Below, piece after piece: positions 23,628-57,200 of a DNA stretch of 64,000 bases. The notes beneath the pieces are model-generated. The model did not search any database and was not told where the DNA came from. It worked only from the letters and a program-made list of their open reading frames with translations. The stretch is from Styela clava. Lineage: Eukaryota > Chordata > Ascidiacea > Stolidobranchia > Styelidae. The translations under genes were made by a program, and so were the position numbers. The stretch is taken from assembly GCF_964204865.1 (NCBI RefSeq), contig NC_135258.1, positions 10,035,001-10,099,000 of the forward strand, in the 5' to 3' direction. Position 1 is the stretch's first letter; each line of letters starts with the position of its first letter.

Positions 23628-25587
23628 ATGAAGGTAATCGTAGCTGGTTTTCCTAAAACCAGGACAAAAACATTGAATTCTGCATTGACGAAACTTGGAT
23701 ACAAAGTGTACGACTACTCAGAAAATGCAATTTATTTGGGAGACGAGTGGAAGAAAATTTTAACAAAACGATGAACAATGAGGATTTCAATAAAATGTAC
23801 AAAAATGTTGATGCATTTGTTGATTTACCAACGTGTTATTTTGGGGAAGAAATCCATAAGGCTTTTCCAGACGCGAAGGTGCGTGATTGTTTTGCGAATT
23901 TTTTATTACATCGTCTATTTAAATCCTTATTTATACATATTTAATATAAGTTGAAACATAGCTTGAGTATATGAATGCTGTAGTAATATAAATATATTTA
24001 TATAGTATGAATTGATTAAAATTGGTTTAGTCGAAGAATAAAATAATTATTTTAATCAGAGACAAACATACAGAGGGTCCCAAAAGTTAATTGATTAATT
24101 AATTTGTGAGTAATATCTGTTAGCCTACATTGGGACCACCCTGCATTGCATATGTATCATTTATTGGACACGTAGTGGACATAGCGATCGTTTCAATATT
24201 ATGTTGTTATTGTTATTTGTCTCCGTCATTTTTAAAAAATCGCTTTTCTCTTCGAATACAGGACCAATTGCTTTGAAATTTTCAGTGGTTAAAGATAAAA
24301 TTTTTCTCCAGAAGGCTATTACTTTTTTTTCGCTATGACGTCATCACAATTATTGCCATTGGGTGGCGCTACGTCTTCATATATTTGAGCATAGCTCTCT
24401 TGTTCAATAATCAAATTTTCATCCATGGACGTGTGTTGTTAATTGAAGTTGCCAATATTTTATGGACGATGGATAACTATAATTTATTGACTGAATCTAG
24501 ATTCTAGACCAAGCAGTCTAATTTCATCACCATTTCAAAATATAAACAAAGGTTGATGGGATTTTGTTGTAGATAATCCTCAGTACACGAGAAAATGAAG
24601 ACGTCTGGTAAAGAAGCCCTGAAAATCAATTTAGAATATCGGAGAATCTAATATCGTACGTAATTTTAATGATACTTTCGCCAACTGCACGGAAAACGTT
24701 GACAGACTGCACGTACCCAGCATGTAAGTGACAACAAGTATATCCATTTGACTTATTGGAAGTGGATCTATAGATCGCTGTTAGTATTATGTTGTTGTTA
24801 GAATTCTTTTTCACGTTCTTGTTGTTAATCAAATTCGATTTTCGTGTTTTTCGCTTCCGTGTCCATATAGTCCGTTTCCATGCATTTGTGTATTGCTCTC
24901 TTGTTACGTAATTGCATGTTGGTCCTGTTGTTCGAATGCCATCAATTTTACGTAATGTAAAATAATGATGCAGATTTAGCATATGATACTTTGTAATTTT
25001 GTGTATTATAGCTCGGATTATGTTCGCGATTCCAAATATGCGAACGATCGGGTATAAACCTTTTAATAGAGAACTGCTCAAGTTGAAATATCGTGCACAT
25101 AACGCACACGTTTTACAGGTATGTATAATGAATTTATTTGAAAAATATCTGAAAATATTTTTACTGCATTACTTTCAATGTACTATGTCATGTAATCATT
25201 GCTGAATGCTTCGTTGACGACGATCACAACATACTCCATTTAGGATTTTGAGATATATATGACTTCATAATTAAGACGAGTTTTCGTATGTCTTTCAAGA
25301 TAATATTTTAAATTAATATTTATTATTTTATACAGAATGCACCCAAAGACAAACTGTTAGTTTACAAAGTGACGGAAGGTTGGGATCCACTTTGTGATTC
25401 TCTCGGTGTTTCAATCCCTAGTGAACCCTTTCCACATAAAAACAAAGGCGGAGATATCACCCAAGAGATTATAAGCACACATCAAATTATGCCTAAACTC
25501 AAGCAAGAAGTGATGGCTTCATACATACTTTTGACAGCAGGATTCGGAGTTAAGAGGATATTTGTTATACAAATTTGGTCTGAATAA
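23628..25587 (+). pseudogene. ST1: Sulfotransfer_4-type pseudogene
   Basis: First paralogue of the array. All four exons are recognisable: 23628-23878, 24573-24723, 25012-25118, 25336-25587. Exon 1 starts MKVIVAGFPKT but the P-loop reads KTRTKTL instead of KTGTKTL, then has an in-frame TGA at 23772 and a one-base deletion in the GW..EDF segment; the FWEEIHK motif reads FGEEIHK. Exon 2 begins IILSTRENEDVW and then has TAA at 24609 where the paralogues have Leu. Exon 4 is frameshifted near 25551, so the GGY..YK part of the C-terminal tail is read out of frame. Splice sites are still consensus. Retained introns show that this is a duplicated gene that decayed, not a retrocopy. Confidence 0.88.
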
Positions 25588-26643
25588 AATTGCATTATTG
25601 ACTTGCAGAGCGTAACGTTGTAGTCTTACTTTATACCATGGTTATTAAAATCACATCCCTAACTAACTACAAGTTTGCATTATGTGTTTGAAACAACGAT
25701 TCGATTATTCTATCTATACTGACAAGTCACAAAAATCATGTTAAATGTTTCATAATAAAATGTTAAAAAGTATTATCTATTTTATTGGTATGTAAACAAA
25801 TGATTTATGATAAACAAAATGACGTTCTTATCGACAGTTGTTTATTGTTCACATGTGATTTATAGTTTTGAGTTTTATTACAACTTTGCTCCGAATAAAC
25901 CCTAGATCAGTTTTTTTTTTATTATTAATTTTATTTTATTTGGCTTCATCTGAAAAAAAAACGGATTATTTCTTCATGAGTTGCTGGATACCTACAATGC
26001 AATAAGTTCGCCAACAGATTCGATTTCTAGCCTTAGTCGTAAATCTCTCCGAAACTGACGCTGGAGTCCTGCAACAATGAAATTTCATGTATTACTCAGC
26101 ACACTGCTTTCCATGTTTTTAGGTAAAATTTCAACACTAGAAGCACAATTTTTGTAGTGACATTTATTAAAACTAACTATCATGAATTACACTCAATCAC
26201 TGATCGGATTCTAGTGATTTCGTGTTCATGGAACTCAGATTTGGGCCGCGCTCCAAAAAGATTTAAAAGCACTGCCCTAAAGTAAAGCATACAAGTGTAA
26301 GCATTTTCAGACGCAATGAAATTTTTTCTATTTTGTATAGCATATTACGAATCACGTTCTGCAAGCTTACATTTTACCCCGATTTTTCTAACCATCGATG
26401 CTAAATACATTTAGGTCAGTAACTCAATACCGAGTTATTCTGGCAGAGTGATATCGAAATATATATATATATAGGTGTCCAAATGCCTACCGAAGAGTAT
26501 ATTTCAGACAGCTTTTAAATGTGTATTTCATCGACAAAATTTGAACCAATATTAGCTTAATTTCGTAATGTTTGCTTACCACAGACGGCGTTATACTATA
26601 CCCGGAGGGCCAACTGCAATACCGTGTTGCAATAGCACTTAAG
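25588..26643. other. Intergenic region ST1 to ST2
   Basis: Apart from the possible tiny secreted peptide at 26077-26414 and a short (TA)n at about 26460-26474, I see nothing in it. Confidence 0.4.
26077..26414 (+). CDS. Possible tiny two-exon secreted peptide gene
   Basis: ATG 26077 opens MKFHVLLSTLLSMFL, a compact signal-peptide-like sequence, ending at 26122 with a phase-1 donor (G|GTAAAA). A pyrimidine-rich acceptor (TTTTTTCTATTTTGTATAG) ends at 26340, and a 26341-26414 exon in matching phase gives about 24 more residues (AYYESRSASLHF..) before TAG. The whole product would be about 39 residues with no cysteine in the mature part. No family recognised; this could be chance or a relic. Confidence 0.2.
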
Positions 26644-28848
26644 ATGAAGGTTATAGTTGCTGGATTTCCTAAAACAGGTACAAAGACCATAAACACAGTT
26701 TTAACTGAATTTGGATACAAGGTGTACGATTACCCTGAAAATGCTTTCGATTATGGAGATGACTGGGGACGAATATTTAAAGAAGGCTGGAGCGTAAGTG
26801 ATTTTCAGCGAATGTACAGAGATGTAGATGCTGTTGTTGACGTGCCATGTTCCTATTTCTGGGAGGAAATCCACAAAGCATTTCCAGATGCAAAGGTAAG
26901 ATTTGGAGAAATAATAAAGTAGGTGATTTCTTTCTTACATGCAAAAATGGGAGGGCCATTGGGTCAGCCACAGATCCAAGCTCGCGTTATTACATATATT
27001 TTTCTGTATGTGTTTTTATCTAAAAGCTAAATTTACGTGTATAGTCTTGAATGTTCACGCCTCTGCATGCATACCTGACGAGCTAACAACATGCGTGGTT
27101 CATTGTATCGGGATATGATATATTATAATGGTAAGTATATACCGATATATAAAGGAATACTGATGTAGATATATAAAAAGAGTTATAATATGTTTCTTAA
27201 TGATTTGTCATGAGTCAGTTACTGCTACTTAGCCTTGGGCAGTTGGCGAATGAAAGTGAAGAACATTAATATTTTTCAGTGATAAAACTTTCCTAACTTG
27301 AAAATGTATTGTACTCCTTTTTTGCGAAATGAATATTTTCAGTCCATTTAAAGGCAAAATTTGGTAGATGCTTCGCGAACCTTTCCGATTCCGATACGTT
27401 ACTCGCTGCTGCAATGAGTACGTATTTTGCAAATGTTGACGTTTCTAATAAAACAAGCTGCATATTTGTGTCATTCCATAAATGGTGCTAAAGGAAAAAT
27501 TAATCTTAAATCAAAACTCTATATAGTTCATTCGAGTAAACATTTAGGCTGCCACAAATCTCACAGACAAATGCGATAATCCCTGTTAACATGAAAATAA
27601 TTCATTCCGTAAATAGCTTGGCAAATAGTTGATGAGTATATTTAGGGTACTCGTCAGTATTTGTTGCCCGAATGAATAAATAATGCATGTGGCACGCATA
27701 TATTGGTACTGATCATAAACTTGAAATGGCTCGCTTATAATTAAGTTGTATTTTGTCGACTAAAAAATGCAAATCTTGTTATAAACAAAATAATTTTAAC
27801 ATGCCTGTCTGAACTTATCCATAATTGATTAAAAAATGGAATCAACATAATTCAGATCATTCTATCAATTCGTGAAAATGAAGAAGCATGGTTGAAAAGT
27901 TTAGAGAATCAAATGAAGATGATAGATTTTAACATGTTAGGATTAATGCAACACCTTTCACCTACATTCAGAAAGTTGGAACGTAATATGGATCTTAATT
28001 TCTGTGAGTTTAAAATTACACGGACCGTTGTACATTTTACGGCTAATAATAGAAGAAATAAAATAAAAAATCGAAAAAAATTGAATTATATATGGTTCAA
28101 ATCGGCAGATAACAAAATGCAAATTGAAAATCAATTTTTCATTTAGACCTATACGTATTGTTTTATTTGGAGTTGTTCTTTTTCTACAGCTCCAGCTATG
28201 TTTGGTATCTCAGACATACGAGATATAGGGCGTAAACCATACAACAAGGAATTGCTGAAGCTTAAATATCGTGCTCATAACGCGCATGTCATTCAGGTAT
28301 TATCATTTAGATTTTAAACAGCATGGAATATTTTATACATCTAAGCCGGCCCCTGTATCAATTTATTCACTCAATATCAATTTTACCTCACCTTTGCTAT
28401 ATCCTGCGCTTAAGTGTGACATGAAAATTTATACGAATCATTCAACTTATACTTTAAACGATACTGTATGTATTGAAATACCAAACACAGCCTGTTTTTT
28501 TTTTATCTGGCTCCAACAAACTTTTGTCTAAAAATACAGAATGCACCATCGGACAAGCTTCTCATTTACAAAGTCACTGATGGTTGGGATCCTATTTGTA
28601 AATTTCTTGGAGTTCCTGTTCCTAACAAACCATTCCCGCACAAAAATAAAGGTGGAAAATATGTTATTGATATTATAAACTCTCATCCATATGCTAGAAA
28701 GATGGAGAAAGAACTGTTGCTGTCATTACTAGCTTCTGCCACCATGATTGGAATCGGCGGTTATATGGTGTATAAAATCGGTTTCTCAAACCTTCGAGAA
28801 ACATCCATGAACTTGTTTACAAGTGCACAATCCTACTTTTGTGAATAA
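26644..28848 (+). CDS. ST2: Sulfotransfer_4-type P-loop protein with C-terminal tail anchor, complete
   Basis: Exons 26644-26895, 27856-28003, 28190-28296, 28540-28848: 816 nt, 271 residues, phases 0/1/0. The P-loop GFPKTGTKT (residues 7-15) is the PAPS-type phosphate-binding loop. VDAVVDVP, FWEEIHKAFPDAK at the exon 1/2 junction followed by IILSIRE match the layout known for Sulfotransfer_4 proteins (P-loop; aspartate-proline-FW; YPDAKVIL). Exon 4 has DKLLIYKVTDGWDPICKFLG and PFPHKNKGG, the other signature block of that family. Residues about 228-247 are hydrophobic (LLLSLLASATMIGIGGYMVY) and followed by basic residues, suggesting a tail-anchored membrane protein. The substrate and even the reaction of this family are not established, so sulfotransferase is a fold-level name. 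AATAAA at 28845 overlaps the stop codon. Confidence 0.9.
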
Positions 28849-32887: not shown

Positions 32888-34225
32888 TTTCCCAAAACGG
32901 AAACAAAAATATTGAACGAGGCTTTATCCATACTCGGATATAATGTGTATGACCATCACGAAAATGCTTTTAATTTTGGCGAACAGTGGGGTGAAATATT
33001 CCGCAAAGGTTGGACCACTGATGATTTTAAGCGAATGTACAGTGGAGTAGATGCTGTCGTTGATGTACCATGCTGTTATTTCTGGGAAAAAATTCACAAA
33101 GCTATTCCTGTTGCAATGGTAAGAAAATACGTGATGTTTGTTTCTTCATTTGCGGTTCAACGGGTCGGCGTATAGCGAAACTTATAAATTTACTTTTTGT
33201 AACAGTTATCACACTTTAAAATAACCCCTTTTCTAAAGGCATTTGAGGGGTATAATAAGTCAGCAAATACGATTTTCTTGGTCGCACTTAGCTTGAAAAT
33301 GGTTTTCATGTTTTACAACATTATAAGATAATATGTACATGCGTGAAATCTTGCCATTTTGATTTGCCATAACTCGGAAATAGTGGGAGTTTTTTTTCAC
33401 AAAGATTTGTCTTCGGATTTGATATATTTTCACTAAGAATTTCTGCAGATTGTTTTGTCACTGCGAGAAAGTGATGAGGTTTGGTTAAAAGGTTTCGAGA
33501 ATCAGATGAAAGTCGGAGGAAACAACATTGTTCTAACTGTGATGAATTATCTCTCGCCGACATCAAGAAAAATGGGGACTAATGTGGGATATCCGTTATG
33601 TAGGTACTTCGTAAATTATATAGGCGACTGAATATCGTGAAAAAAGCATGTACATATTTGATTTGCATCCATATCCAACATCGAAATATACCAATAGATG
33701 ATACTAACGGCATTTCCGATTACTTTGAAGCTATCACAATATTCGGAATCTCAGACATACCGTACGTTTGATTGATGTCAACCTTACAATAAGGAGTTGT
33801 TGAAACTGAAATATCGTGCACATAACGCTTACGTAATGCAGGTAAATATTAGGAAATAATACCTTCTCATTTCTGACTAATTCTACATGAGTTTATATCA
33901 TCACTGTGATATTGAATATTTTCTAATGTAGAATACACCCCCTGAAAAATTACTTATTTACGAGGTGACGGAGGGCTGGAAACCTCTGTGTGATTTTCTT
34001 GGAGTCCCGATACCGGATGAAGATTTCCCACATAAAAATAAGGATAAGGGTGGAGAAATCCTAAAAGAAACTATGAAAAATCACCCAATTATGCAAAAGA
34101 TGAAACAAGAAATATTGATATCATCGCTACTTTTTACAACTTTTCTTGGCATCGGTGGATATCTTGTTTACAATAATGGTTTAATGAACATGTTCAATTC
34201 ACTAACTGATGCACTCAAGCGCTAA
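32888..34225 (+). pseudogene. ST3: Sulfotransfer_4-type pseudogene lacking its start
   Basis: Exon 1 remnant 32888-33118 begins at the P-loop (FPKTETKILNEAL) with no MKVIVAG and a TAA immediately upstream; P-loop Gly12 is replaced by Glu (KTETK). Exon 2 33449-33599 is intact (IVLSLRESDEVW). Exon 3 33731-33841 is 4 nt longer than the family's 107 and is frameshifted between about 33758 and 33780 before recovering as PYNKELLKLKYRAHNAYVMQ. Exon 4 33932-34225 is open (NTPPEKLLIYEVTEGW, PFPH-equivalent DFPHKNKDKGG, tail hydrophobic segment ILISSLLFTTFLGIGGYLVY). The loss of the start plus the frameshift make a functional product unlikely. Confidence 0.85.
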
Positions 34226-34565: not shown

Positions 34566-34599
<34 letters not shown>

Positions 34600-35375: not shown

Positions 35376-35947
35376 ATGAAAGTCATAGTATCTGGATTTC
35401 ACAAAACCGAAACGAAAACGTTGAATGAGGCGCTAACAATACTTGGATACAAGGTCTGCGATTATTTCGAAAATGCGCATGATTAGGCTGACGAATGGGG
35501 GAAAATATTTCTCGTAGGTTGGACTACTAACGATTTTAAGCAAATGTACAAGAAGGCAGAAGCTGTCGTCGATGTACCTTGCTGTTATTTCTGGGAGGAC
35601 AGTCCATTCTTTTATCTTATAATGTTTATTTCATCGAATATTTGTGAATACAGAACGCATCGCCAGATAAACTTTTAGTTTACAAAGTCACGGAAGGTTG
35701 GAAACCACTTTGTGATTTTCTCGGAGTTCCAGTGCCCAGGGATGATTTCCCTCACAAAAATAAAGGCAGAGAAATTTTCAAAATAAACATGGAGAAACAT
35801 CCGGTTATCCAAAAATGTAAACGAGAGGGGATTAGAACGTCGTTACTTCTTGCAACGACTGTTAGCGTTGGATATATTGTTCACAAATATGGTTTATGGA
35901 ATATTTATCGATCGGTCGCCGACGCAATAACTCTTCCGTGGATCTAA
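35376..35947 (+). pseudogene. ST4: Sulfotransfer_4-type pseudogene with internal deletion
   Basis: Exon 1 opens at ATG 35376 (MKVIVSGFHKTETKTLNEAL): P-loop Gly12 is Glu as in ST3 and Pro9 is His. An in-frame TAG lies at 35484. Exon 1 breaks off at about 35599 inside FWEE and the sequence passes directly into the intron that normally precedes exon 4, so the end of exon 1, exons 2 and 3 and their introns are deleted. Exon 4, 35654-35947, is fully open (NASPDKLLVYKVTEGWKPLC, DFPHKNKGRE) with a tail containing a hydrophobic stretch. The shared KTET change suggests that ST3 and ST4 descend from one already altered copy. Confidence 0.88.
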
Positions 35948-36552: not shown

Positions 36553-37302
36553 CTGTAATATATATTAAAATTAATTTTGAAAACAAATAGTATTCTCATT
36601 TTTCACTTTTTAAACCGGTTATATATGAGTTAATATTCATGAAGGCCGAAATCGTGCACGTTTATACTATTCCTATTTTTGTAGACGAAAGTCCAAAGAA
36701 ACTATTTGCCGACGTAATAGTTTTCTCGCTCAAAAGCGTGTCTAAATACACTTTGAAAGCAAACACTCAATCGTAGTTTCTCGATAGCACGGGACACACT
36801 ACACTTAGTCTTATAATTCGTTCGACCTTCAAGATGAAAGTTATAGTTGCTGGGTTCTCCAAAACTGGTACAAAGACTTTAAACTCAGCGTTAACTAAAT
36901 TAGGATATACGGTATATGATTATCCAGAAAACGCATTCATATTGGGAGATGATTGGGAAAAAATACAAAAATATGGCTGGACAACAGCTGATTTTAAGCG
37001 AATGTACGAAAACGTAGATGTCGTCATGGACGCACCGTGTTGCTGTTTCTGGGAAGAAATTCATAAAGCATTTCCTGATGCAAAGGTAAAATTTTTACTT
37101 TTGGTGATGAGGGATTAGATGTAGAATTGCTTAATGTTTTCTGAATGTATGATTTATGGTGGATGTATGATTTATGGTCAATACACAAACAATTGTCAGT
37201 TATTACTTTTCAAGTTGGAGGAAAAGCTTAATAAATGAACAGTATAATGTTTTATATCATTTATTTATAACCAGTACAAATTCATGCTATTAGCAATATT
37301 CT

Positions 37303-37461
37303 TCAACATTGTTCCCCGATTTCTGTGAATGATTCAACACAAGAATTTATAATTTTTTCAATACATGAACAATAGCAGCATTGATAGGTTATCTGGTCAA
37401 GTTTATCTTCACGTTGGTGAGCTTGCATTCGGATACCTCTAGCTACCTCATCTACCATTAC
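37303..37461 (-). CDS. Possible unknown minus-strand exon inside an ST5 intron
   Basis: After an acceptor-like TTGTTTCAAG the minus strand reads VMVDEVARGIRMQAHQREDK, then LDQITYQCCYCSCIEKIINS and a Cys-containing end before TGA at 37305-37303, with AATAAA about 35-45 nt downstream. Composition is protein-like and Cys-rich. No family recognised. It could be a last exon, a small gene starting at ATG 37458, or a relic. Confidence 0.28.
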   Translation of the reverse strand, partial: VMVDEVARGIRMQAHQREDKLDQITYQCCYCSCIEKIINSCVESFTEIGEQC

Positions 37462-37784
37462 CTTGAAACAATAATCAAAAAAGTAGCAGCAGTAAATATA
37501 TATGTTACACACTATAAGTATTTTTATGTGAGACTAAACAAAATCACTTGATTTTAATAGCATAATTAATTTACTGTTTAGATAATTTTATCTATTCGAG
37601 ATAGTGATGAACAATGGCTCAAAAGTTTGGAAAAACAAATGCTGAGTTCAGAAGGAAATTGGGCTGTCAAATTGATGACTTATCTCTCGCCGACTTATCG
37701 CAGTATTATGAACAAAACTGCATTACCAACGTGTACGTATCATTGTTTTTATAAAACGTACAATACAAGGAATTTAAAAATTAG

Positions 37785-37885
37785 AAAAGCTTATGTACGG
37801 CTATGTCAATGTGTATTATTTGTTATGAATATAAATTTAACAATCAACCTTAAACAATAATTCGCTAAGCTCCTGAAATAAATAG
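37785..37885 (-). repeat. Repeat R, inverted copy
   Basis: The inverse of 36250-36354 with only a few differences; it lies immediately before the acceptor of ST5 exon 3. Confidence 0.65.
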
Positions 37886-40374: not shown

Positions 40375-43300
40375 ATGAAAGTCATAGTTGCTGGTTTCCC
40401 CAAAACCGGCACAAAAACATTGAATGTAGCGTTGACAAAATTAGGATATAAGGTATATGATGCACCTGAAAACACGTACTATTTAAACAAGGATTGGGAT
40501 AAAATACTAAATAAAGGGGGATGGTCAACAGAGGATTTCAAGCGAATGTACAAAGATGTAGATGCTGTTGTCGATATGCCAAGCTGTTATTTTTGGGAAG
40601 AAATTCACAAAGCCTTTCCTGACGCGAAGGTAATATTAACAATTAAGAACGTAAATAAATCGTCACGCTAATAACCGAATTGCGTAAGTCATTTTTAGCA
40701 GTTTTGAGAAAAACGTAATAAACCTCCTAATGATATTGTTATGTCATTGAGAGTCAATCATTTTCCATGGTTCAATTTTTTGATCGTAGCCGGATTTAAG
40801 TTATTTTGTATGACGCAGTTATGTGACGTCATAATTGCGCACTGTGACTTAGGCAGAAATGTGTCTATGACTTTGGGACATACGCAATTTCGCAACTTGA
40901 CTATATGCAGCAGTCATGAAAAACAAACATTCCAAAAACGAATGTAATTCTCAGTATCTACGATGTCTAATCCCCAAAATAGCAAATTTATTTCAATTAC
41001 ATCATTTTTTATGTTCAATAATATGTATTTCATCAATATAACACGTTCTGCACACCCACCGAAATAAGACTAAGATTAAATATAAAGAATTAAATAGTAA
41101 TGCACCATTATATGAAAGCCAATCAAGGTGAATTGGACTCAGACAGTGACTATCACAAGTGCACGCCTTCCTAAACCGTAGTAAAAATCAAATTTATAAG
41201 CGCTGAGCTAGAATCTGAGATAGAATCTGAGAATCTAAATACCTACTTTATAAAAAAAACTCAAAACCGCCAAATATGACTTAGGCAATTCGGTTATTAG
41301 CCTGACGAAATGTATTTCATAGACATTTTCACAATGACAAATCTCAATATGAACTACTGATTTTTGTGGTTTTCACGACAACTTTTTATCCCAACTTAAA
41401 TGTTTATGATACACAGGTTCGAATGGTATTTTGTTATCACGTATTGTAAGTTAGTGTCTCTGATTGAGGCTGAGAAATTGTTTTAGCTCTCAATAAGCAA
41501 CAGTATAGCTATAGAGTCTATACTATAGACCAGGGGTGGGCACACCACGGCTCGCGAGCCGCATGCGGCTTTTCTCGCTAACATAAATTATTATCCAAAT
41601 TTTAACTAAGAGAAAAACGTTCATGTAAACTCTTTTAATTTATTAAAAAGCCGTAAAGAAGTTTTCGTCAATGATTAGGATAAATTATCTTTTAGTATGA
41701 AAATCGCTGTAGCGTTGAATTTTGAATTTAAGTCAGTCAAGCCACAAATCTTTCGTCACAATGGTCAATTGATGCGTCGGCGGTATTGCAGCTTGATTGC
41801 GGTTAGTCAGTCTAAGTTACTGTGCGATATGTCCTCAAACAAAAACGAAAGTACGAAGATGAAAACAGAGTTGTCAAGTCAGAATGGGAAGAACGTACGA
41901 ATTTACCAGTCAGCAGAATAAACCTTTGTGCTTAATCTGTCATAAGCTACTAAGTCAGAATAAAGTCAGCAATTCAATCAGCACCATGAAACGAATCATG
42001 AAAACTTCCTACGAGACTACTCTCGTAAATCAGCTATAAAGAAACACAAATTAAATGAGCTCAAATTGTGCATATATTTGAGTATAGCTGCCAATTGTTT
42101 ATCTATTTATTGTTATTAGACTCTTGTGTGAATTTCTTTTCCGTTCATGGTATTTTGATAGTATTATTAAATTCACAAATTTTCCGGCTCTTTTAAAGTT
42201 CTGACTTGCAGCATGCGGCTCTTATACTAAAAAATTGTGCCCACCCCTGCATAGACCCTCAGCGTTCAAACATAGACAATTTGTGTAAATGTGTACATTT
42301 CCGTACTGTAAAATGTGCGGCAGGATTCGCAAGTCAATTTCATGCTTGTTTGCTTAATTTGAGTTCTGAAAGAGGTTTACATATAAAACAAACAAGACAA
42401 CTCTTCAAGAGTCAACGATTCCAAAAAAAAATGCTTGCTTATCAAAACAAAATGACAGAAAGAAGGGTAAAATCAAAAATTTGTAGACTATCTGAAACAG
42501 GGTCGTCCAACTTTTTTGGTCGAAGGGCCACATGTAGTTTACCAATTATTGCGCTGGCCACTTAACATGGCATTATGTTCTAGTTTTGCTACACTGAGTA
42601 CAGGTTAATGGAAAAACAAACAGTACCTCCACACCAAACTTTCAGAATTATTTACCAATAAAACCAATAAATAAACCAAAAAAAAAGAAAATACGTGCTG
42701 ATACATGTGCTCGCGTACTCCAAACATCACATTGAAATAAATTTTTAAAAAAATACGTGGGTGTGTGGGGTCTAATACATTGTTTTAGCATAGTATATGG
42801 CAGGTTACCGCTTCTATACAGATTGAGTTCGAATATATATGCCTTTTTAAATTACACTTTCCACATTCTTGACAGATGTATGATTTTTCTCCAGTATGGG
42901 TTCGAACATGGCGTTTTAATTCTTCTGGAGTTTTGAAGGATTTCTTACAAACCAAAGGGTTTCTTGCCAGTAAGGATCTTTTCATGCTTCTGTAATTTTT
43001 GAGCCTGAAGCGCCCACCACAACATTTACAAGCATATGGTTTATCTCTGTCATGTATTTGTGTATGTGTCCGTAGATTACTTCTCTTTCGAAAATATTTT
43101 CCACATTGATCACAAAAATATGGTTTTTCTCCAGTATGGATTCGAATATGGTTTTTCAAGCTAGAATGACCGGAAAAACCTTTTTCACAATATTTACATT
43201 TGTATCGTTTTTCTCCAGTATGGGTTCGAATATGACATTTTAAATCAGTTTTATTATTGAAGGCCTTCTTGCATTTTTCACAAACAAAAGGTTTCTCTTC

Positions 43301-46214
43301 AGTATGTTTCTTTTCATGAATCTGTGAGTTATTTTTGTGACTGAAGCGTTTACCACAATGTCTGCAAGCATATGGTTCATGTCCATTATGCATTTGCATA
43401 TCAACCTGTAGATTACTTTTTTGCTGAAATGATTTTCCACATTGCTCACAAGAATATGATTTTTCTCCAGTGTGAGTTTGAACATGTCTTCGTAAGTTAG
43501 ATTTTTGCTTGAAACGTTTTCCACAATATTTACATATGTATGGCTTTTAACCAGTATGGGTTCGAATATGAGTCTTCAGGTTCGACTGCTGCGAAAAATA
43601 CTTCCCACAATGATAACAATGAAACGTTTTTTTTTCTGGTGTGGGATCGAATATGTAAATCTCGTTTCGAATCCAATGACTTATGACATTCTTTACACAC
43701 CAAAGGTTTTTTCCTGTATGGATTCTTTCATGCGCTTGTACATGACTTTTTCGCCTGAAACACTTGCCACAATGTTTACAAACGTACGGTTTATCTCCAC
43801 TATGGATTTGTGTGTGTACCTGGAGATAACATTTTTGTCGGAAACATTTTCCGCGCTGTCTACAAGAATATGGTTTTTCATCAGTGTGGACTCGAATGTG
43901 ACGCATATACGCCCCTGTGGTTGTAAACGATTTTTCACAACTTTTTGTCTGCAGTTTGGTTCTGTGACTACCTTTATGTATTTCCAAAGACACTCCTTCT
44001 ATAAAGAACCTCTCGCTGGGTTTTTTCGGTTTTACTTTTCCATCGGATTTCTCCATATTAGAAGTTTGTGTAAATGTCTTTGACAAAGATGCAATTACTG
44101 ATGAGACCCATGAATATGTCCGATGTCCGCTAGATATCCTTTGTTATTTATGATATATATTACGCACATTGCAGATCACTCCATATATATTACTGCACTA
44201 AAATTTTCTTATGTTATCTGACCCGGAGCCCCAAAAAATGGTAACGTCAGTACTTTATATTTCGAATTGCCGGTAACACTTGAGATATGTAGAGTGTTAC
44301 AGTATTCAACGGAGCAGCATTTTATAAACACTAGAATGAAAGTATTCACAAAGGAGTTCAATATTTTATTTTGATTTTATTACATTTAATGAATATGCAT
44401 ATAAATTATTTACAAAAACCATACTATAATTGAATTTCGAATCTTTTCTAGTTCAAAGTCATCAAAACTGCCTAAATAAAAATAAGATCCACCTTACTGA
44501 AAATGCAACTACTCGTCTTTTTCAGAACGATTCAAAATAAAGCTAATCATAAACTACTAACTGCGGCTATAATTTCCTGTCTAGTTCCCAGAATTTACGT
44601 CGCGCTTAAACTTATTGTTTGAATTGTTAGACGCGTAGTAATTCGTTAATCGTAGTATTCATAGCCTTTTCCCAACAGGCTCCACACACACACTATGACA
44701 GATTATCATTGAATACCATTTATAAGATCATGCCTGAAACTTTACAATAACCATCGTGTATAGTCTACTAAAATGATATTGTATTCTACATATGGTCGAC
44801 TGGTACAGATAGAAATGTTGCACGGTTAGCATTAATCTTGCTATTTCGGTTTGAAACACCGGATAGCTAAAACTAACATAAATCGCTGGGAACATTGTAT
44901 GTGTGGGACCTCATAATTTAGAATTTAGTTTGCTATGAAGTGTAAAACAATGGCATATATCAAAGCCTGAATAATCCAATTCTTTTTCAGATAATTTTAT
45001 CCTTGCGTGAAAGCGATGACGAATGGCTAGAAAGTTTGGAAAAACAAATGAAGACATCGGGTGGCATTAGGGCAATAAAATTGATGACATTTCTTTCTCC
45101 AACTTATCGTAATATTTTGATTAAAACTGGTCGACCGGCATGTGAGTAATGAGAATAAAATATTGACATTTTTTCACCTCGAAATATTGAAATTATTTTC
45201 CGGAAAATCAAATTACGAAATTGTAGATTTTTGCAAATTCAGTTCATATATCCACACCATAGTATATTGTTGAATTTGGTCAGTGAACTCCAAGTCAGTT
45301 TTATTTTTCAACTATGCATCACAATATGCTATCGAAGCTATTAAAGGAAATGAATCTGATACAAAGTTGAACTGTTTGCTATTTGTTTGAAGACTACCCA
45401 AATTTTAGTCGGAGCCTAACAAAAGCACTATAGCAGTGAAACCTTTATTACTGAATATCATCAACTTTTGCAATCCTATATTTTTACAGCCTTAATCATG
45501 TTCGGTATGGAAAATATCAGTTCAATAAGCCACAGGCCTTACAATAAAGACATGCTAAAACTCAAGTATCGTGCCCATAATGCTCATGTATTGCAGGTAA
45601 TTTTGAATATATATATATATTGTTCACTAAGATTGATAGACTATTGAGCAATATGATATTTCTGTAAATTATTCTGGCTTTCGTTCTCCGGGTGGTCTGA
45701 AAGTAGCTGAAATAAAGCAGATAATGTGCCGGAAAACAACATTCATTGGATAGAAAGATTCAAAAAGCAAAATACCTGCTTTTTGGTCGCTCTCATTTTC
45801 TACTATGTATATATTATATATTTTTATTCACAAGACTAGTTATGATTATCAATTAGTTGTTTTTGTTCCGATTATACCTAATTCAGTTGCAAAATTTTTA
45901 CTCAGAACGCACCTCCGGACAAGCTTCTTGTATATAAAGTCACAGAAGGATGGGATCCCCTTTGCAAATTTCTTGGAGTTCCTATTCCTGATGAAACATT
46001 TCCTCACAAGAATAAAGCAGGAATTATTATTCGTGAGATGTTGGCAACGCATCCAATTCTTATAAAAATGAAGAGAGAAATGTTGATATCATCTGCAATC
46101 CTGGCAACTTCACTTAGCATTGGCGGATTTTTTGTTTACAAACGTGGCTTCAGAAATATAATTAAACTTATCATCAATTTTGTTCAAAATATATTTCCAA
46201 ATAATTACTTTTGA
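40375..46214 (+). CDS. ST6: Sulfotransfer_4-type P-loop protein, complete, with a nested gene in intron 1
   Basis: Exons 40375-40629, 44991-45141, 45490-45596, 45906-46214: 822 nt, 273 residues. P-loop GFPKTGTKTL at 7-16; FWEEIHKAFPDAK ends exon 1, which has one extra Gly (NKGGW). Exon 2 gives IILSLRESDDEW and LMTFLSPTYR; exon 3 LKYRAHNAHVLQ; exon 4 DKLLVYKVTEGWDPLCKFLG and a hydrophobic tail (MLISSAILATSLSIGGFFVY) followed by KRG. Intron 1 is 4.36 kb, far longer than in any paralogue, because it holds TIR element A copy 3, a hAT-like element, another hAT end and an antisense zinc-finger gene. A pyrimidine-rich tract ending TTCAG lies directly before AATG, which may be a splice or trans-splice acceptor. 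Tail AATAAA signals occur from about 46329. Confidence 0.9.
40661..41307 (+). mobile_element. TIR element A, copy 3
   Basis: Starts CGTCACGCTAATAACCGAAT, ends ..ATTCGGTTATTAGCCTGACG, flanked by AAAT on both sides. Same orientation as copy 2 and shorter (647 bp) through internal deletion. It sits just inside ST6 intron 1. Confidence 0.85.
41531..42249 (+). mobile_element. hAT-like short TIR element
   Basis: Ends CAGGGGTGGGCACACCACGG and (inverted) CAGGGGTGGGCACAATTTTT; subterminal GCATGCGGCT near both ends. Flanks CTATAGAC and CATAGACC share an offset match, so the target duplication is blurred. 719 bp, in ST6 intron 1. Confidence 0.8.
42498..42570 (+). mobile_element. hAT-like end, partial
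   Basis: CAGGGTCGTCCAACTTTTTT followed by GGTCGAAGGGCCACATG has the form of a hAT terminal repeat. No opposite end found. Confidence 0.4.
42785..44056 (-). pseudogene. C2H2 zinc-finger gene, antisense in ST6 intron 1, with nonsense codon
   Basis: One continuous reading frame on the minus strand from ATG 44056 to the stop at 42785, made of about 13-14 C2H2 finger units joined by TGEKP-type linkers, broken once by TAA at 43549-43547 exactly at the Glu of an HTG(E)KPY linker. Between about 43725 and 43640 one finger is garbled by a base lost in one A-run and regained in another, so the frame recovers. Several fingers have lost ligands (a CxxC reading CRQR, an H changed to D in LQVDMQMH, and a collapsed pair near the C-terminus). 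Well-formed units include YKCKYCEKGFSGHSSLKNH and FVCEKCKKAFNNKTDLKCH. C2H2 arrays of this kind bind DNA in the nucleus. As it stands it encodes two truncated pieces and looks like a decaying gene; an upstream exon is possible before 44056. Confidence 0.8.
44090..44990. other. Remainder of ST6 intron 1
   Basis: AT-rich with nothing recognised. The zinc-finger promoter or a further 5' exon, if any, would be here. Confidence 0.35.
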
Positions 46215-46846: not shown

Positions 46847-49400
46847 ATGAAAGTCATTGTAGCTGGAATGCCCAAAACGGGCACGAAAACTTTGAACGAA
46901 GCTTTGTCAAACATGGGATTCAAGGTATACGATTATATCGAAAATTCTGTATACTTACGAAATGAATGGATGAAAATTTTGAAAACAGGATGGTCAACCG
47001 AAGATTTTAAACGGATGTTTGAGGACGTTGATGCAGTTACAGATGTTCCTAGTTGTTATTATTGGGAAGAAATCCACAAGGCATTTCCTGATGCAAAGGT
47101 ACTGCCATAAATTCAATCCAATTACCGAATAGGTTGTCCCAATTTAAATAACAATAAACAATGAATATCATTGCTGCCCTATTTTCGCTCATCTATCTAC
47201 CGCACCAATTCAAAGAACGAGATATATTTCAGTTGTGAGCTTCAACAAAGATGGTTTGTGGGTTCAATGCCCCGAAACAATCATAACTCGAGTTTGTCAG
47301 TGCAAAATTTATGATTGTTCCGGGACAATGAACCCACAAACCATCTTTGTTGAAGCTCACAACTGAAATATATCACGTTCTTTGAATTGGTGCGGTAGAT
47401 AGATGAGAGTACACGTCATCTTACCGATTCCTTAATCAATTCTGTTACTGCTTGATGCCAACTTGTGATTGACAACATAAGATCTCTGAAAACATATATT
47501 CGTAATTAATTTATCCATCCATGGGTCTTTTTTATTTTACAAAAATTTCACTTTAGTCGTCCATTGCGATTACTTCGAAAAACATCCCTAGCGTATAGTA
47601 TTTTAATATTATATGTTACGTGTGCTCTCCCGATGTGCTAAAAAGACATATATATGCTAAAAAAAAATTGGTACATGAAAAAACGAAGTCCGAGTTGGCA
47701 CATTTAATTTGTGTTTTCGGTTTGCGCAGAAACAAAACATGCTCTACCCCCAACAGGCTTGATAAAAAGTTATTCGGATCTCATTCGTATATATACAACA
47801 TAAAGTGGTATTGCCTTTCTGTTACTCGATGTGCTTAAGCAATCTCCGCGAGTAACTTATTTTAATTCCCACATCCCTATTAAATATTTTAGTTTTTATA
47901 GACAAAATTTAATAATGCAAATGTTATATGACTTTTTGTAGATAATTTTAACTCTTCGAGAAAATGACGAAGTTTGGCTTAAAAGTTTCAAGAATCAAAT
48001 GAAAACGTCGAATGGAAATACAATGGTTACTTTGCTGAGCTATCTTTCTCCAACTTTTCGAAGATCTGTTTTTGATATTGGATTTGCTATGTGTAAGAAA
48101 TCATATTTACAGGACATAACAGTAACCTTAGCTTTGTAAAGATTCAGTGAATATTATGCTTAAATACAAGTCGGCAACGCAGAGGTCATTTGCAACATAA
48201 TCTAGAAAAATCATAACTTTTGTGCAAAGCGTCGTAGATTACTGAGACTTTTAGGAAAAATTCACACACAAACAGAGTTTAGGTGTGAAAAATAAATATA
48301 TATACATTTTTTCATTTTTGTTCTGTTTTTGGGGTCACCCTTTGTATACGCAATAATAAACAGCATGTTATCGATGCACTCACGTCGTTTTTTCATTATG
48401 TTTTTGAACAGCAACCGATGACAAGCCTCTAATCAGTTTATGAGTAAAATCACGTAAAATTACTAGCGACATCGCAGTAGTCTTAATGCTCTTAAATGCA
48501 TATTTCATTCTCTGAGACTTGAAATTAGTTATGCTGTTTTCAGTCTAATATTATTATTCATTTTTTTTTCTATAGCACCGGTAATATTTGGATTAGCTGA
48601 TGTGCGCCATATAGCATATGACAGCGTGAACGGTGACATGCTGAAACTGAAATACCGAGCACACAACGCTCATGTTATGCAGGTAAATAATAATTTTATT
48701 ATCTTTCGATTATACTGTTCTCAAGAAATTGGTCATTAACATTTATCCTACACTTGTAATAAATTTGCGCGCAGTCGTATGTAGCCTATTACAGGAATAA
48801 TAAATACGTACATATATACAGTCTTTTCAAGTAATTCTTGATCTCTTAGCATATTACAGTCATTTTTCCACTTTTGTACAATATCTGTAATATTTATCTC
48901 TTATTTGTATAAGTATACAGGAACACTCGCAATCCTGACCACTCATGCACAAATCATCCAACAAGCACTCAATGTTTATATATTTTTTGTGCTTCAGTTT
49001 TAGCTGTTTTATTCTAATTTTACGCACCTTCCAGCACTATATAGTTGCACCTTTGATTTCTTAAATGATCTCTGTTCATTGTGCTGTGATTAAGATTCTA
49101 TAACGAGATTTTCATGTATATATGGTTTCTATGCTCAAATTCTACAAATAGAATGCACCACCGGACAAACTTCTCGTTTACAAAGTCACGGAAGGTTGGG
49201 ATCCGCTATGTAAATTTCTTGGCGTTCCTGTCCCTGATAAACCATTTCCACACAAAAACAAAGGCGGTGCAATGATTGAGGAACATTTGAAATCGGATCC
49301 AATCGTACAAAAGATGAAAAGAGAGATGATGGTGTCTTCTATTTTGTGCACAGCCTTTCTTGGTCTTGGAGTATACTTTATCTACAAACGTGGAATTTGA
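46847..49400 (+). CDS. ST7: Sulfotransfer_4-type P-loop protein, complete
   Basis: Exons 46847-47098, 47942-48092, 48576-48682, 49152-49400: 759 nt, 252 residues, the shortest intact member. P-loop GMPKTGTKTL; FWEE reads YWEEIHKAFPDAK; exon 2 IILTLRENDEVW, LLSYLSPTFR; exon 3 LKYRAHNAHVMQ; exon 4 DKLLVYKVTEGWDPLCKFLG, PFPHKNKGG, then a hydrophobic stretch (MMVSSILCTAFLGLGVYFIY) ending KRGI and stop, so the tail after the membrane segment is only four residues. Intron 1 contains a large hairpin (47188-47407). Confidence 0.9.
47188..47407. repeat. Near-perfect inverted repeat (98-bp arms, 24-nt loop)
   Basis: Left arm 47188-47285 and right arm 47310-47407 are inverse copies with about four differences in 98 positions. 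The arms begin CTCATCTATCTACCGCACCA and converge on TATGATTGTT. Transcribed in ST7 pre-mRNA it would fold into one long hairpin. It may be a very short foldback element. Confidence 0.9.
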
Positions 49401-50385: not shown

Positions 50386-53300
50386 ATGAAAGTCATTGGT
50401 GCAGGATTATTGAAAACAGGCACGAATACATTACATGAAGCTTTTACTATTCTCGGTTACAAGTCCTACCATTATTTTGAGAGTGTATCATATCATGGAG
50501 AAGAACGGTCAAAAATATTGAATAAAGGATGGAAAACAGAAGATTTTAAACGGATGTACGAAAATTTAGATGCTGTATTTGATGGCCCGGGGCTCTATTT
50601 CTGGGAGGAAATTCATAAAGCTTTTCCTGAAGCCAAGGTGAAAGTCTTGATATAGAAAATATTAATACTACATTTTAATTTTGCTCTCCGTCTCGTTGAC
50701 TTCGAAATTATATATATATATTGCTGCGGCTCGTCTAGTATGTAACCAGAAGTATAAACTTATAGTGGGCGTGATATTTTTCCGTATTTCATTCGCGATT
50801 CCGCCGTCCCAAAATATGTCACTGCGACGTCACCACAATCATGTAATAGAGCTTACCAAAGACGATTGGAGACGATTACCCGCAAGTGTAAAGGTTTGCC
50901 GAAATAAGGAAAACGAGACAATGTTTGAAAATTTGTCCGAGTGAAATAAGTTCTTGGGCGACTTCTGAAATTTCAATTGTTCCGTCACCATCACGCAATT
51001 TTTGATTGGCCATTTTTATGACGATAAACAAGGAAGTCAATATCCATAGAAAGGTGGAAATTGGTCATAAACTATTTCCTCTTTTTCCGTATTACCATAA
51101 AAGTTCGTTTCAAAACTCCGAACCCAGTAAATCATATTTGTACGCTCTTTGCTCGTGTGAATTTCCCTAACTCTAAACTTTGGGACCAAAGGCCAATCTG
51201 TTTGAATATTATTTAGGGAGATTGAAATAATGATTTCATTTTTAGATTATCTTGACTGTTCGCGAAAACGAAGATGTGTGGCTTGAAAGTCTGATTAATC
51301 AAATGAAAGTTATGGAAAGCAATTTTCTATTTCGACTGATGGAATATCTCTCTCCATCTTACCGCAAAACAATCATCAACATCATGCTTCCCTTGTGTAA
51401 GTTCCATTTGTTCAATAAATAACATACGCTACGAACCAATACTTATTCAGTTGTATAACACCTATATCACGGACGATATCCAAGAAACTGTTAAATAAAG
51501 AGATAACAAAACAGTCAGCGCTAGGGATGTAAGTTTCGAATATTTCATTTTCGAATCGAATCCCGAATCTGATTCTATTTGGTATAGCACATTATCGTTA
51601 ACTTCCTTTAATTTGAAAGAGCAATAGCATAAATTGTAATTAAATAACAATAAGGAACTTGAAGAATGATTAAGTTAGTAGAAGAACACCTTGAATTTAT
51701 GCTTCAACTAGATAACATATTTGAGAATATTCATTTTTGTTACATAAAGTTACACTCAGTTATATTTACTTATTACCTAACTTTATGTTCGCAAATATGA
51801 CCCAAAGTATATACCGTAGATCATTTCTTCTAAAATTAAACTTCAAAATTCATCAAAATGATAAACGCCAGTGAAATATGCGTTATTGGCCTACCGCCTG
51901 CGCCGCGATTTTAATTAAAGAAAGAAAATGATAACGAAGGAAGCATCGCAGATCTATGTTTTTAATGAGGAATAATATTGTTATTACAATGACATCACAT
52001 AGGTAATTTAAAGACACGTTTATATAATGAGATATTTGTAAAACTTTTTTAGGATTTTAAATAGTCTAAAAAAAGTAACGAAACCTTTGGTCCCTCTAAA
52101 GCTGTGACCCATATGAAATTTAACAACCCTCGGAGTGTCACGACTTAGAAACGTTGTAAACGTAGGGAAAATAAACGCTTTTGGTCGGTGAGGAGACAAC
52201 GCCGCTGTGTCGTGCAATGGCCTCGTGTTATCTAAATTCTAAATTATTATTTTTTTAAAAATAGAATCAAGTCGTTTTTTTCAAATTGCTTCGAGTTTAT
52301 GTTGATTTGAATTGCTTCGATTCGAAATTCTGAAACTTACATCCCTAGTCAGCGCACACAAAGTGATAACGTCTACACGTTGATGATTAATTTATGACGT
52401 TTGGTAGGCCTAATTGAAACAAATGTCGATATTCGCTCTTAGGAAGAAAATTCCATGACTTAAGATTCGAAGTGTAAATAGAGCTTGAATTGAATGAGCA
52501 GACAATTTCAACTGGAAAACTGCGTGATATGAACACTATTAATTATCTTTTTAAGCCTAATTCTGAGTCTGATAAAACAGGGACGAGTCTGGACTTGTAG
52601 GTACATATATATTTGTTACACTACGAACATTCCTGAAGAGATTAAAGCAAAGCCAATGCAAAATGCTATGCTGCGATAATGAACTTAAAATTAAGAAATC
52701 GTTTCACTTTTTCAGCGAAAATATGCTTTGGAATGGATATCCGTAAAATTCGCTGGGAAAATCATCTTAACAGGGAATTGATCAAACAGAAATATCGAAT
52801 GCACAACAGATATGTGATGCAGGTTGTAATACTGTTGTAAACTTACCTCACAGAGTACATAGCCAAGACGAAATTTTGTAATTTTTTTTAAATGTAATTA
52901 CATATTTGGCCCCTACAAATAGGGAAAAGCCTAGCACACATCTCTCTAAAATAAATGTAATAACATTCCATAATCGAATAAAAGCAAAATCATAAATTAA
53001 TCACCCTTTGGTCAGTTGTTTTGGCAGTTATTTTTACATATCTGTTTCTTAACAGTATGTACTAGAAGCACATCAAAATTCTATTATTTATTGTCACCTT
53101 GCAAAACATATTCATGTGTAACTCTCAGCGCTTTCCATAGTTACTATAATCTATGTATTTCAAAGTTTGAGGTTAGGTTTAAACTATATTTTTTATTGTT
53201 AAAATAAAATCGTAAACATTACAGAATGCACCCAAAGACAAACTCTTAGTTTACAAAGCTTCAGAGGGATGGGAACCACTTTGTAAGTTTCTTGGTATTC

Positions 53301-53518
53301 CTATTCCTGACGAACCATTCCCACATAAAAACAAGAAAGGAAAAATCATCAATGAATATCTACAATACAATCCATTGGTGATTCGAATGAAAAGAGAGAT
53401 GTTTGTATCCTGTACTGTTCTGGCAATTGTGGTACCAATTGGTGGATATCTTCTGTATAAACGAGGAGTAAAAAATTTATATGAATCCTGTTTAAAGTTA
53501 TTTTGTGACTATGTTTAA
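50386..53518 (+). CDS. ST8: divergent Sulfotransfer_4-type P-loop protein, complete
   Basis: Exons 50386-50637, 51246-51396, 52716-52822, 53225-53518: 804 nt, 267 residues. Together with ST9 it forms a separate subtype: P-loop KTGTNTLHEA (Lys14 to Asn), Y-H-Y in place of Y-D-Y, AVFDGPGLYFWEEIHKAFPE, exon 3 IRWENHLNRELIKQKYRMHN, and KASEGWEPLCKFLG in exon 4. The PFPHKNK block and a hydrophobic tail (MFVSCTVLAIVVPIGGYLLY, then KRG) are kept. The exon 3 donor is GTTGTA, weaker than the GTAA donors elsewhere but shared by ST9. AATAAA at 53556. ATG context TTACCATGA is good. Confidence 0.88.
51522..52347 (+). mobile_element. hAT-like short TIR element in ST8 intron 2, perfect 8-bp target duplication
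   Basis: Ends TAGGGATGTAAGTTTCGAAT and (inverted) TAGGGATGTAAGTTTCAGAA; flanked by GTCAGCGC on both sides (51514-51521, 52348-52355). 826 bp, no transposase. The equivalent ST9 intron reads AACAAAACAAAGCGCAAACG without any insert, an empty site in the paralogue. Confidence 0.93.
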
Positions 53519-54019: not shown

Positions 54020-54140
54020 TGAAGCGCTTGTCTTTTGCGGTTGTTTCAAATTGAAGCCACCTCCTGCAAACCTCGCTCCGTCTGTACGTTTTGATTGAAT
54101 GATTGGCGCACTAGATCGAGCTAATGCAGGATCGCGTTCC
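54020..54140 (-). pseudogene. Orphan copy of the last exon of CFAP58
   Basis: Minus strand: acceptor TATTTTTAG then GAACGCGATCC.., reading RTDGARFAGGGFNLKQPQKT, the same as the real terminal exon at 57661-57781 with several substitutions (APIIQSK for APIIQPQ). The stop TAA has become TCA, so the frame runs on. It was carried along when the ST8/ST9 unit duplicated. It lies beyond the genuine last exon and has no other CFAP58 exons beside it. Confidence 0.88.
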
Positions 54141-54204
54141 CTAAAAATATACAAAATAAATGGTATAAACTGAGCACCGAGGCATGCTTGTCAATATGAT
54201 TGTC

Positions 54205-57200
54205 AATATGTGTGCCACTGACGCTTGAACCTCGCGCAATGAGGATATAAGTAAACATCACAGTGAGCTAGTGGCAGTCCTTTTAATTTTGCGCATCGGC
54301 GTATGTAGACAGTCTAGTGTGAAATCCTTGTCAGGAAATATACTACAGACAGGTTATCGTGAAAGTCATTGGTGCAGGATTATCGAAGACAGGCACCAAT
54401 ACCTTACATGAAGCTTTTACTATTCTCGGTTACAAGTCCTACCATTATTTTGAGAGTGTATCATATCATGGAGAAGAATGGTCGAGAATACTAGCTGAAG
54501 GATGGAAAACAGGAGATTTTAAACGGATGTACGCAAATTTAGATGCTGTATTTGATGGCCCGGGGTTCTATTTCTGGGAAGAAATTCATAAAGCTTTTCC
54601 TGAAGCTAAGGTAAAAGTGTTAATGCACAAAATATTAGCACTACAATTTGATTTGGCTTTCCGTCTCATTGACTCGAAAATTATGTATGTATGTTTGTTC
54701 ATTTGCCTCAAAATGTAATAGTATCTGTATAATAATTAAAAGTGTAAAAGAGACTGGATACATGTTCAAGACCTTACTGGCCTAAGACGCATGTGCGACA
54801 TGTACCCCTAACGAGTATAACAGCAGTTTAGGACTGCTGCGTTATATTAGGACAATATATATACATGAAATATGCTACAGGGCCTACAAATAAAACTCCA
54901 TTACAATACACAGGGCAAGAGTTACGGCACAACGACGATATGTACAATAGTTAAGTTATGGCACGTCCATGTCCTAGAATTCAGTGTGAATATATTTATA
55001 TGAATATTGCTGTGGCTCGTCTAGTTTATAACAACAAGTATATACTTATAGTGGGCGTGACATTTTTTTCGTATATATATCATTCGTGGCCCCCTCGCAA
55101 TTGCGCCATTCAAAAAAAAATACGTCACTGCGACTTCACCACAATCACGTAATAGAGGTAATACCTATTGCCAAAGAATGGGGACTATTAACCCAATCAT
55201 TGCGAAGAGCTCAAATGTATATGAATCTCATGCAACAAAATTCAAATCAAATTTCAACCACGAAAGCTTTTTTTATTCAATATATACCGGTATTTACGAC
55301 ATATATACAACTGAAATCTTCAAAATCTTGTCGAAATGATGAAAAGGAGACAATATTTGCAACCACGTTTGATATTTTGTCAGAGTCAAATATCTTCTTG
55401 AACGACGTTTTAAATTTTAATTGTCCCGTCACCGTTATGTAGTTGTTGATTGGCCATTCTTATGACGATAAACGAGGAAGTCAATATCCATAGAAGGATG
55501 GAAATTGGACATAAACTGTCGCCTGCTAAGCGTATTACCATAAAAGGTCGTTTAAACACTCCGAAACGAGTAAATCTCTCTCTCGCTTATTCCTCGTGTA
55601 AATTTCTTCAACTCTAAACTATGACACCAAAGGCCGACCCATTCAAATTTTGTTTAAAGAGATTGAAATAACTTATTCTCATTTTTAGATTATTTTATCT
55701 GTTCGCGAAAGCGAAGATGTGTGGCTTGAAAGTCTGATTAATCAAATGAAAGTTATGGAAAGCAATTTTCTTTTTCGACTGATGGAATATCTCTCTCCGT
55801 CTTACCGCGAAACAATCTCCGGCATCCTACTTCCCATGTGTAAGTTCCATCTGTTAATTAAATAAATAACAAACGCTGATAACCAATTTTTATTCATGCG
55901 TATTTAATTACACACCAAATGTGAAACACCCATATACAGGCAATATCCAAGAAGCTGCTGAATAAAGAGAGAACAAAACAAAGCGCAAACGAAGTGATAT
56001 CTCGTCTGTACAAGTTGATAATTGATCGCTTTTGGTAGGGAGAATTGAAATAAACGGCGCTTTTCGTCCCGACCGTAGGAAGATAAATTCATGATTTCGA
56101 ACCGGAGTTGTAAGTAGGGTTTGAATTAGCAAATAATTTTTACGATTGTGAAGCGGCGTGATATAAAACACTATATTCTTAGCCTACTTCTGACTTCGAA
56201 AAAGGGGTGTGTGTACTCTAGATCCCTTATGCTGCGATGACAAACTCAAATCTAATAAGTCGTTTCACTTTATCTTCAGCAAAAATATGCTTCGGAATAC
56301 CAGATCTCCGTGAAATTCGCTGGGAGAATCATCTTAACAGGGAATTGATGAAACAGAAATATCGAATGCACAACAGATATGTGATACAGGTTGTAATACT
56401 GTAAACTTACCTTGCCGAGTACATAGCCAAGACGAAATTTTGTTATTTGTTTTAATATAATTACATATTTGGCGCCCACAGATAGGAAAAAACTAATACA
56501 CATCTCTACAAAATAAACATATATATTTGCATTTCAGAATCGAAGGAAAGCAAAATCATAAATTAATGACTCTTTGGTCAGTTGGTTCGGAAGTTATTTT
56601 TACTTATCTGTTTCTTAACAGTATGTACTAGGCAAAAAGAGCAGGCTACTTCAAAATCCTGGTATTTTTGTCCTCTTGCAAAATATATTCATGCGTGACT
56701 CCTAGTGCTTTCCATAGTTACATCAATCTATATGTTTCAAAGTTTGAGTTTAGGTTTGAACTCTATTTTTCATTGTTGAAATAAAATTGCAAACATTACA
56801 GAATGCACCTAAAGACAAACTCTTGGTCTACAAAGCTTCAGAGGGATGGGAACCACTTTGTAAGTTTCTTGGTATTCCTGTTCCTGACGAACCATTCCCA
56901 CATAAAAACAAGAAAGGAAAAATCATCAGTGAGTATCTACAATACAATCCATTGGTGATTCGAATGAAAAGAGAGATGTTTGTATCCTGTACTGTTCTGG
57001 TAATTGTGGTACCAATTGCTGGATATATTCTATATAAACGAGGAGTGAACAATTTATTTGAATCCTGTTTAAAGTTGTTTTGAATATGCCTGAAATATCA
57101 CATATCAAAACCATATATATAAGTTTGTAGAATAAAACCGACGAATCTCCGAGAATATATTTATTATAAATGTCAAGACGGGGTAGAAACAATGTTATTT

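Follow-up and report, generated by a model that had tools for sequence, protein, structure and literature searches.

A tandem array of Sulfotransfer_4 genes with predicted C-terminal membrane anchors in the ascidian Styela clava

Introduction

The schistosome sulfotransferases SULT-OR/SmSULT, ShSULT and SjSULT (PDB 4mua, 5tiv, 5tiz and others) belong to the Pfam family Sulfotransfer_4 (PF17784). Here we describe genes of the same family in a 64,000-nucleotide stretch of the genome of the ascidian Styela clava (NC_135258.1, forward-strand positions 10,035,001 to 10,099,000; hereafter the window, in whose coordinates all positions are given), where nine copies, c1 to c9, form an array. We consider it moderately likely that this array encodes tail-anchored, cytosol-facing small-molecule sulfotransferases of the S. 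mansoni type, which depend on 3′-phosphoadenosine 5′-phosphosulfate (PAPS) and whose acceptors are diverging. Family, gene structures, motif residues, constraint and tail hydropathy were computed, and from these we infer activity, topology, membrane and acceptors.

According to passages of one paper, SULT-OR belongs to a locus with six paralogues and to a family expanded in trematodes, and adult male worms subjected to RNA interference against it showed oxamniquine resistance but no other evident phenotype (PMC7405262); the array is likewise multi-copy. PF17784 proteins are counted among phase II detoxification enzymes in a passage of the fluke literature (PMC11812014), and the InterPro name of the family appears in an excerpt of another paper as 'Sulfotransferase, S. 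mansonii-type' (PMC11625862). Excerpts on the active site state that Asp91 of SmSULT hydrogen-bonds the acceptor hydroxyl (PMC4618941), and that its next residue is Leu92 and its SjSULT counterpart Asp87 (PMC12414012). A C-terminal anchor is mentioned in none of the literature passages on the schistosome enzymes, the C-terminal sequence of these enzymes itself lying outside the comparison. A preliminary description of the present DNA had stated that the family has no established substrate; this is true of the natural function and untrue of the structurally solved SULT-OR, for which a drug substrate is known. SULT-OR-type enzymes thus have crystal structures and a drug substrate while their natural function is still sought, and the array gives a different handle on it.

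Cytosolic SULTs (PF00685) are soluble. Golgi carbohydrate and tyrosylprotein sulfotransferases are membrane-bound PAPS enzymes, as is proposed here for the array products, and they are lumenal, with an N-terminal anchor. Literature searches, mostly of passages and listings, turned up no tail-anchored sulfotransferase. If the anchor proposed below is real, the soluble/lumenal split of eukaryotic sulfotransferases would need a third class.

Results and Discussion

Nine copies of a four-exon gene

Exon-by-exon tblastn, and exon hidden Markov models (HMMs) run on six-frame translations of the window with the reversed window as control, found nine head-to-tail copies between 23,628 and 57,083, all on the + strand. 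An exon plan of 252(255)/151(148)/107(110)/249-312 nucleotides (nt), with GT donors and AG acceptors, is common to c2, c5, c6, c7, c8 and c9. These results bear out the copy number, the orientation and the four-exon plan of the preliminary description; its division of the copies into four intact, one lacking its ATG and four broken was likewise confirmed by frames, splice sites and lesions.

Four copies have spliced frames that run uninterrupted from ATG to stop: c2 (26644..28848; exons 26644-26895, 27856-28003, 28190-28296 and 28540-28848; 271 residues), c6 (40375..46214; 273 residues), c7 (46847..49400; 252 residues) and c8 (50386..53518; 267 residues; PAPS loop GLLKTGTNT). Intron 1 of c6, 4.36 kb long, holds a repeat and a pair of zinc-finger open reading frames. 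Exon 4 of c7 (49152..49400) may serve as an example of the last exon, as it encodes the C-terminal part of the catalytic core, a basic linker and a hydrophobic segment, with the stop five residues past that segment. In c9 (54359..57083), a recent duplicate of c8, the only visible lesion is a GTG where other copies have ATG; upstream there is an in-frame stop at 54,320, followed by no in-frame ATG before the GTG, and the first in-frame ATG of exon 1 comes only at codon 57.

The four broken copies carry different lesions. A frameshift in exon 1, a stop in exon 2, a Gly-to-Arg change in the loop and an altered tail mark c1 (23628..25587). The third copy (c3, 32888..34225) has no start, is missing the first part of the loop, and has a loop Gly-to-Glu change, a stop in exon 3 and no AG at the expected exon-3 acceptor. 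A stop in exon 1 and a loop Gly-to-Glu change were found in c4 (35376..35947), for which tblastn and exon HMM searches did not find exons 2 and 3. Finally, c5 (36834..38577) is broken in exon 4 by a stop plus 6 extra nt.

Beyond c1 to c9, the only hits above the control were a pair resembling exon 2, both weak, in intron 3 of c8 (HMM E 0.059) and of c9 (E 0.0011), the best control hit having an E of 0.26. A relic exon 2 at these places was considered and rejected: alignment of the DNA to eight exon 2s gave z from -1.4 to 2.4 over 16 comparisons, and the hits were judged to be due to chance.

Family assignment and active-site residues

All five spliced models (c2, c6, c7, c8 and c9) match PF17784, the best with an E of 3.3e-59; c6 scores 190 bits (E 6.6e-56) over residues 2-209, against a curated cut-off of 22.8 bits. 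Of the eight pieces of broken copies that were scanned, six also exceed the cut-off, and each of c1, c3, c4 and c5 contributes one or more of these; exon 4 of c5 is below it (20.2 versus 22.8 bits), and exon 2 of c3 is without a match. The Sulfotransfer_4 assignment made earlier thus held in the HMM check for the five models and for pieces of all four broken copies. PF17784 scores far better for the spliced models than Sulfotransfer_3 (PF13469), which matches all five weakly (best E 6e-06; 21.5 bits for c6, against a cut-off of 27). PF00685 (Sulfotransfer_1) gave no match in c6 at E up to 1, NCBIfam gave no credible match (one of five members at E 0.042), and the Pfam scan gave a weak AAA_18 match in one member. 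Among viral contigs there was a single 25-residue match (L003).

A profile of the five models found nine distinct solved sequences with E values from 8.9e-27 to 2.2e-22, all of them named sulfotransferase or SgdX2, including SULT-OR (4mua) and the bacterial SgdX2 (8y9p, 9kf1). Chains of the SULT-OR type align with the array copies over about 210 residues; the similarity is low, and the PAPS loop, an Arg/Ser pair and the acceptor-side Asp are kept. Two bacterial Sulfotransfer_4 proteins, from Streptomyces (L001) and Ilumatobacter (L002), have the same domain and motifs as the array, their best segments being 31% and 30% identical, respectively.

The lysine of the PAPS loop is present in all nine copies. 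So is an Asp, Asp67 in c6, that aligns with the acceptor-side Asp of the schistosome enzymes (SULT-OR Asp91), a position placed via alignments whose partners were schistosome chains other than SmSULT, plus two more proteins. Arg91 and Ser100 (c6 numbering) are invariant in the five models; this pair presumably binds PAPS through its 3′-phosphate, as in other sulfotransferases. By these comparisons the array consists of new members of a known family, and the tail described next is one less expected feature, which we treat as a variant.

The C-terminal tail

Past the Pfam match, the proteins of c2 and c5 to c9 continue with a basic linker and a hydrophobic segment of 19 residues, after which 5-25 residues remain. 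The best 19-residue Kyte-Doolittle mean in these six spliced copies is 1.79-2.44; of 2000 shuffles of each copy's own protein, the segment value was reached by 79 (c6), 40 (c5), 26 (c2), 13 (c7), 7 (c8) and 4 (c9). The bacterial relatives L001 and L002, the two compared in this respect, have no hydrophobic tail, in contrast to the array: their values are -0.55 and -0.58, and 1885 and 1854 of 2000 shuffles reach them. In the seven copies other than c1 and c4, 131 of the 133 residues that make up the segments are other than D, E, K, R, N, Q, H or P (Ser and Thr not being scored as polar), at a mean identity of 0.35 over 20 pairs, c8-c9 left out. We regard this apparent conservation of nonpolar character at low identity as a stronger argument for the tail than the shuffles.

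Net positive charge was found directly before and directly after the segment in all six copies tested. The motif past it is YKRG in c5 to c9, YKIG in c2 and YNNG, with no basic residue, in c3. Thus, of the tail described earlier, the hydrophobic segment is there, weak in c1 and c4, and the basic residue said to follow it is present in most copies but absent from c3.

At the other end of the protein the domain begins at residue 1-2, leaving no N-terminal anchor of the Golgi type II kind, and, with the last 75 residues set aside, the most hydrophobic window lies at residue 125-127 or 176, with a mean of 0.74-1.49 (five copies). Judged on hydropathy, the proteins have the single C-terminal hydrophobic segment, with no N-terminal signal, by which tail-anchored proteins are recognized. 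With a tail charge of 0 to +4 and hydropathy of 1.8-2.4, endoplasmic reticulum and mitochondria are not separated by the rules given in an excerpt of PMC5450235. Membrane anchoring of the copies via the tail, as had been claimed, is thus supported by sequence, namely by hydropathy and segment character. The strongest hydrophobic segment being C-terminal, the array enzymes would lie on the side of the membrane opposite to that of the Golgi enzymes.

Divergence and selection

Synonymous (dS) and nonsynonymous (dN) divergence was calculated over the 15 pairs of six copies (c2 and c5 to c9), c5 being counted minus its stop. In 12 pairs dS was 1.32-2.87, levels that place the pairs far apart and give no age; two pairs were saturated beyond calculation, and dS of c8/c9 was 0.153. 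For the 12 old pairs just named the ratio dN/dS was 0.09-0.20, and for c8/c9 it was 0.34. Since dS has reached or approached saturation in 14 of 15 pairs and is low only in c8/c9, the array is, as read from dS, old with one recent event and no visible burst. The c8/c9 duplication spans about 50,236-54,189 and 54,208-57,831. The earlier characterization of the genes as a rapidly duplicating lineage does not agree with these values, and a rate would be derivable only with a sister species.

A phylogeny of exons, which the preliminary description had proposed, supported c8 with c9 and little else. This pair was starred in three trees (exon 1, exon 4, full length), in the last of which the split from the two bacterial rows was starred too. 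The exon 4 tree alone grouped c3 with c4 (86/86), with c1 joining them (66/78); the remaining branches are without resolution. The loop Gly-to-Glu change is common to c3 (32888-32902) and c4 (35376-35411), which cluster in exon 4, and because they do so the change is possibly older than their split. A copy that was already altered may thus have been duplicated.

Divergence on the acceptor side

Among c2, c5, c6, c7 and c8, exon 1 has a mean identity of 0.66. The blocks after it (c6 residues) have 0.62 (86-108), 0.40 (109-158) and 0.81 (159-208), and the tail has 0.45 (linker), 0.36 (segment) and 0.51 (residues past the segment). Block 109-158, which is helical, is the most divergent part of the catalytic domain among the paralogues. 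By position, in a loose alignment, it holds six of the 17 oxamniquine contacts listed in an excerpt of PMC12414012. Because the most divergent block also holds these contacts, we infer that the paralogues may have diverged in acceptor specificity. The only SULT-OR residue mapped with confidence is Asp91; Asp144 and Thr157 belong to the block whose alignment is loose.

A model for the array, and alternatives

In the model that we favour, each intact enzyme would hold PAPS with the Arg91/Ser100 pair and the GxxKTGTxT loop. Asp67 would serve in the sulfonation of a hydrophobic alcohol or phenol close to the membrane surface, and the product, an anion, would leave the enzyme. The enzymes would face the cytosol, fixed to an organelle membrane by the C-terminal tail anchor. 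Cytosolic SULTs are likewise expected to be cytosol-facing PAPS enzymes acting on small molecules, although c6 has no match to their family. The array would then be old, its enzymes would differ in acceptor, and it would have lost copies to pseudogenisation and gained one by a recent duplication. As a further and weaker step, the products might be exported by an adjoining ABCG2-like pump.

Several observations weigh against this model. Copies c8 and c9 have another residue in place of the loop proline, and in the same two the hydrophobic segment includes a proline. The segments of c6, c5 and c2 are unusual compared with shuffles yet not extreme, and the tails of c1 and c4 are poorer (1.51 and 1.12, respectively), with segments that contain charged residues or are poorer. 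The low polarity of the segment (131 of 133 residues) is partly built in, since maximal hydrophobicity was the criterion by which the window was picked. Tail dN/dS is 0.15-0.62 (13 of 15 pairs computable), indicating weaker constraint than in the rest of the protein, and the dS values, as said, date nothing. On the acceptor side, 11 of the 17 listed oxamniquine contacts lie outside block 109-158 (same excerpt of PMC12414012), and the linker and segment are about as variable as the supposed acceptor block.

The copies could instead encode ordinary soluble enzymes of the SULT-OR type, whose C-terminal helix packs on the domain or dimerises and anchors nothing. The crystallisation of the relatives as chains of 212-263 residues would fit this, as would the moderate hydropathy of c2, c5 and c6, the poor tails of c4 and c1 and the excess of tail dN/dS over domain dN/dS. 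We nevertheless hold it to be rather unlikely, as the segment comes only after the Pfam match has ended (at residue 209 of c6), is nearly free of polar residues at 35% identity in seven of nine copies, and is flanked by net positive charge on both sides in six of six copies, while the c7 protein ends so soon after it.

It is improbable that the array is a graveyard of decaying and mostly non-functional genes in which the four open copies are merely not broken yet. Lesions in five of nine copies, and the long c6 intron with a repeat inside, are what such decay might leave; low dN/dS at saturated dS, with intact splice sites in four copies, however, points to long purifying selection. Least probable of all is a loss of sulfotransferase chemistry, with the proteins acting at the membrane as regulators that bind PAPS, 3′-phosphoadenosine 5′-phosphate or other nucleotides: their activity is a prediction from sequence and the c8 and c9 loops have lost the proline, but the four intact copies and c9 retain the loop Lys, Arg91, Ser100 and the counterpart of Asp91.

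Flanking genes and repeats

Upstream of the array and on the same (+) strand lies an ABCG2-like half-transporter gene (14667-20956, extent approximate), seen as exon pieces only. ABCG2 is the best solved match for all four upstream pieces searched (E 6.4e-23, 2.9e-11, 3.5e-17 and 0.001); matches to ABC2-type membrane families came from three pieces, in one case under the cut-off, and two others have no Pfam match. An animal lineage, as named in the preliminary description, is likely from these exons and from those of CFAP58 described below. BCRP/ABCG2 transports many sulfate conjugates, according to a passage of PMC8793843. The locus might thus be a conjugation-and-export cluster, where membrane-tethered sulfotransferases, as a third architectural class of PAPS sulfotransferase, would catch lipophilic compounds at a membrane facing the cytosol and the ABCG2-type pump next door would expel their sulfates. 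We regard this extension of the model as attractive but quite doubtful; the adjacency is seen at a single locus. If it were correct, four acceptor profiles, one organelle-targeting signal and one adjacent exporter-like gene would narrow the search to lipophilic compounds that are conjugated at a membrane and pumped out.

The zinc-finger sequence in intron 1 of c6 is a C2H2 array on the opposite (-) strand (42785-44143), with an in-frame stop between two runs of fingers, and it looks like a decaying zinc-finger gene. The repeat in the same intron (40651-41311, +) is one of a family of three copies in the window, up to 94-95% alike; a second is within the ABCG2-like gene (18191-19026, +) and the third, inverted, is at 1807-2527 (-). 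The family is probably a mobile element. Intron 1 of c7 contains an inverted repeat (47188-47407) whose arms, 99 nt long and 22 nt apart, are 96% complementary. Farther upstream, on the + strand, are gene pieces (8124-12054) that match EGF-like and, weakly, zona-pellucida families, neither match reaching its Pfam cut-off. Downstream of the array, on the - strand, the window contains exons of CFAP58, a ciliary coiled-coil protein (60564-62765).

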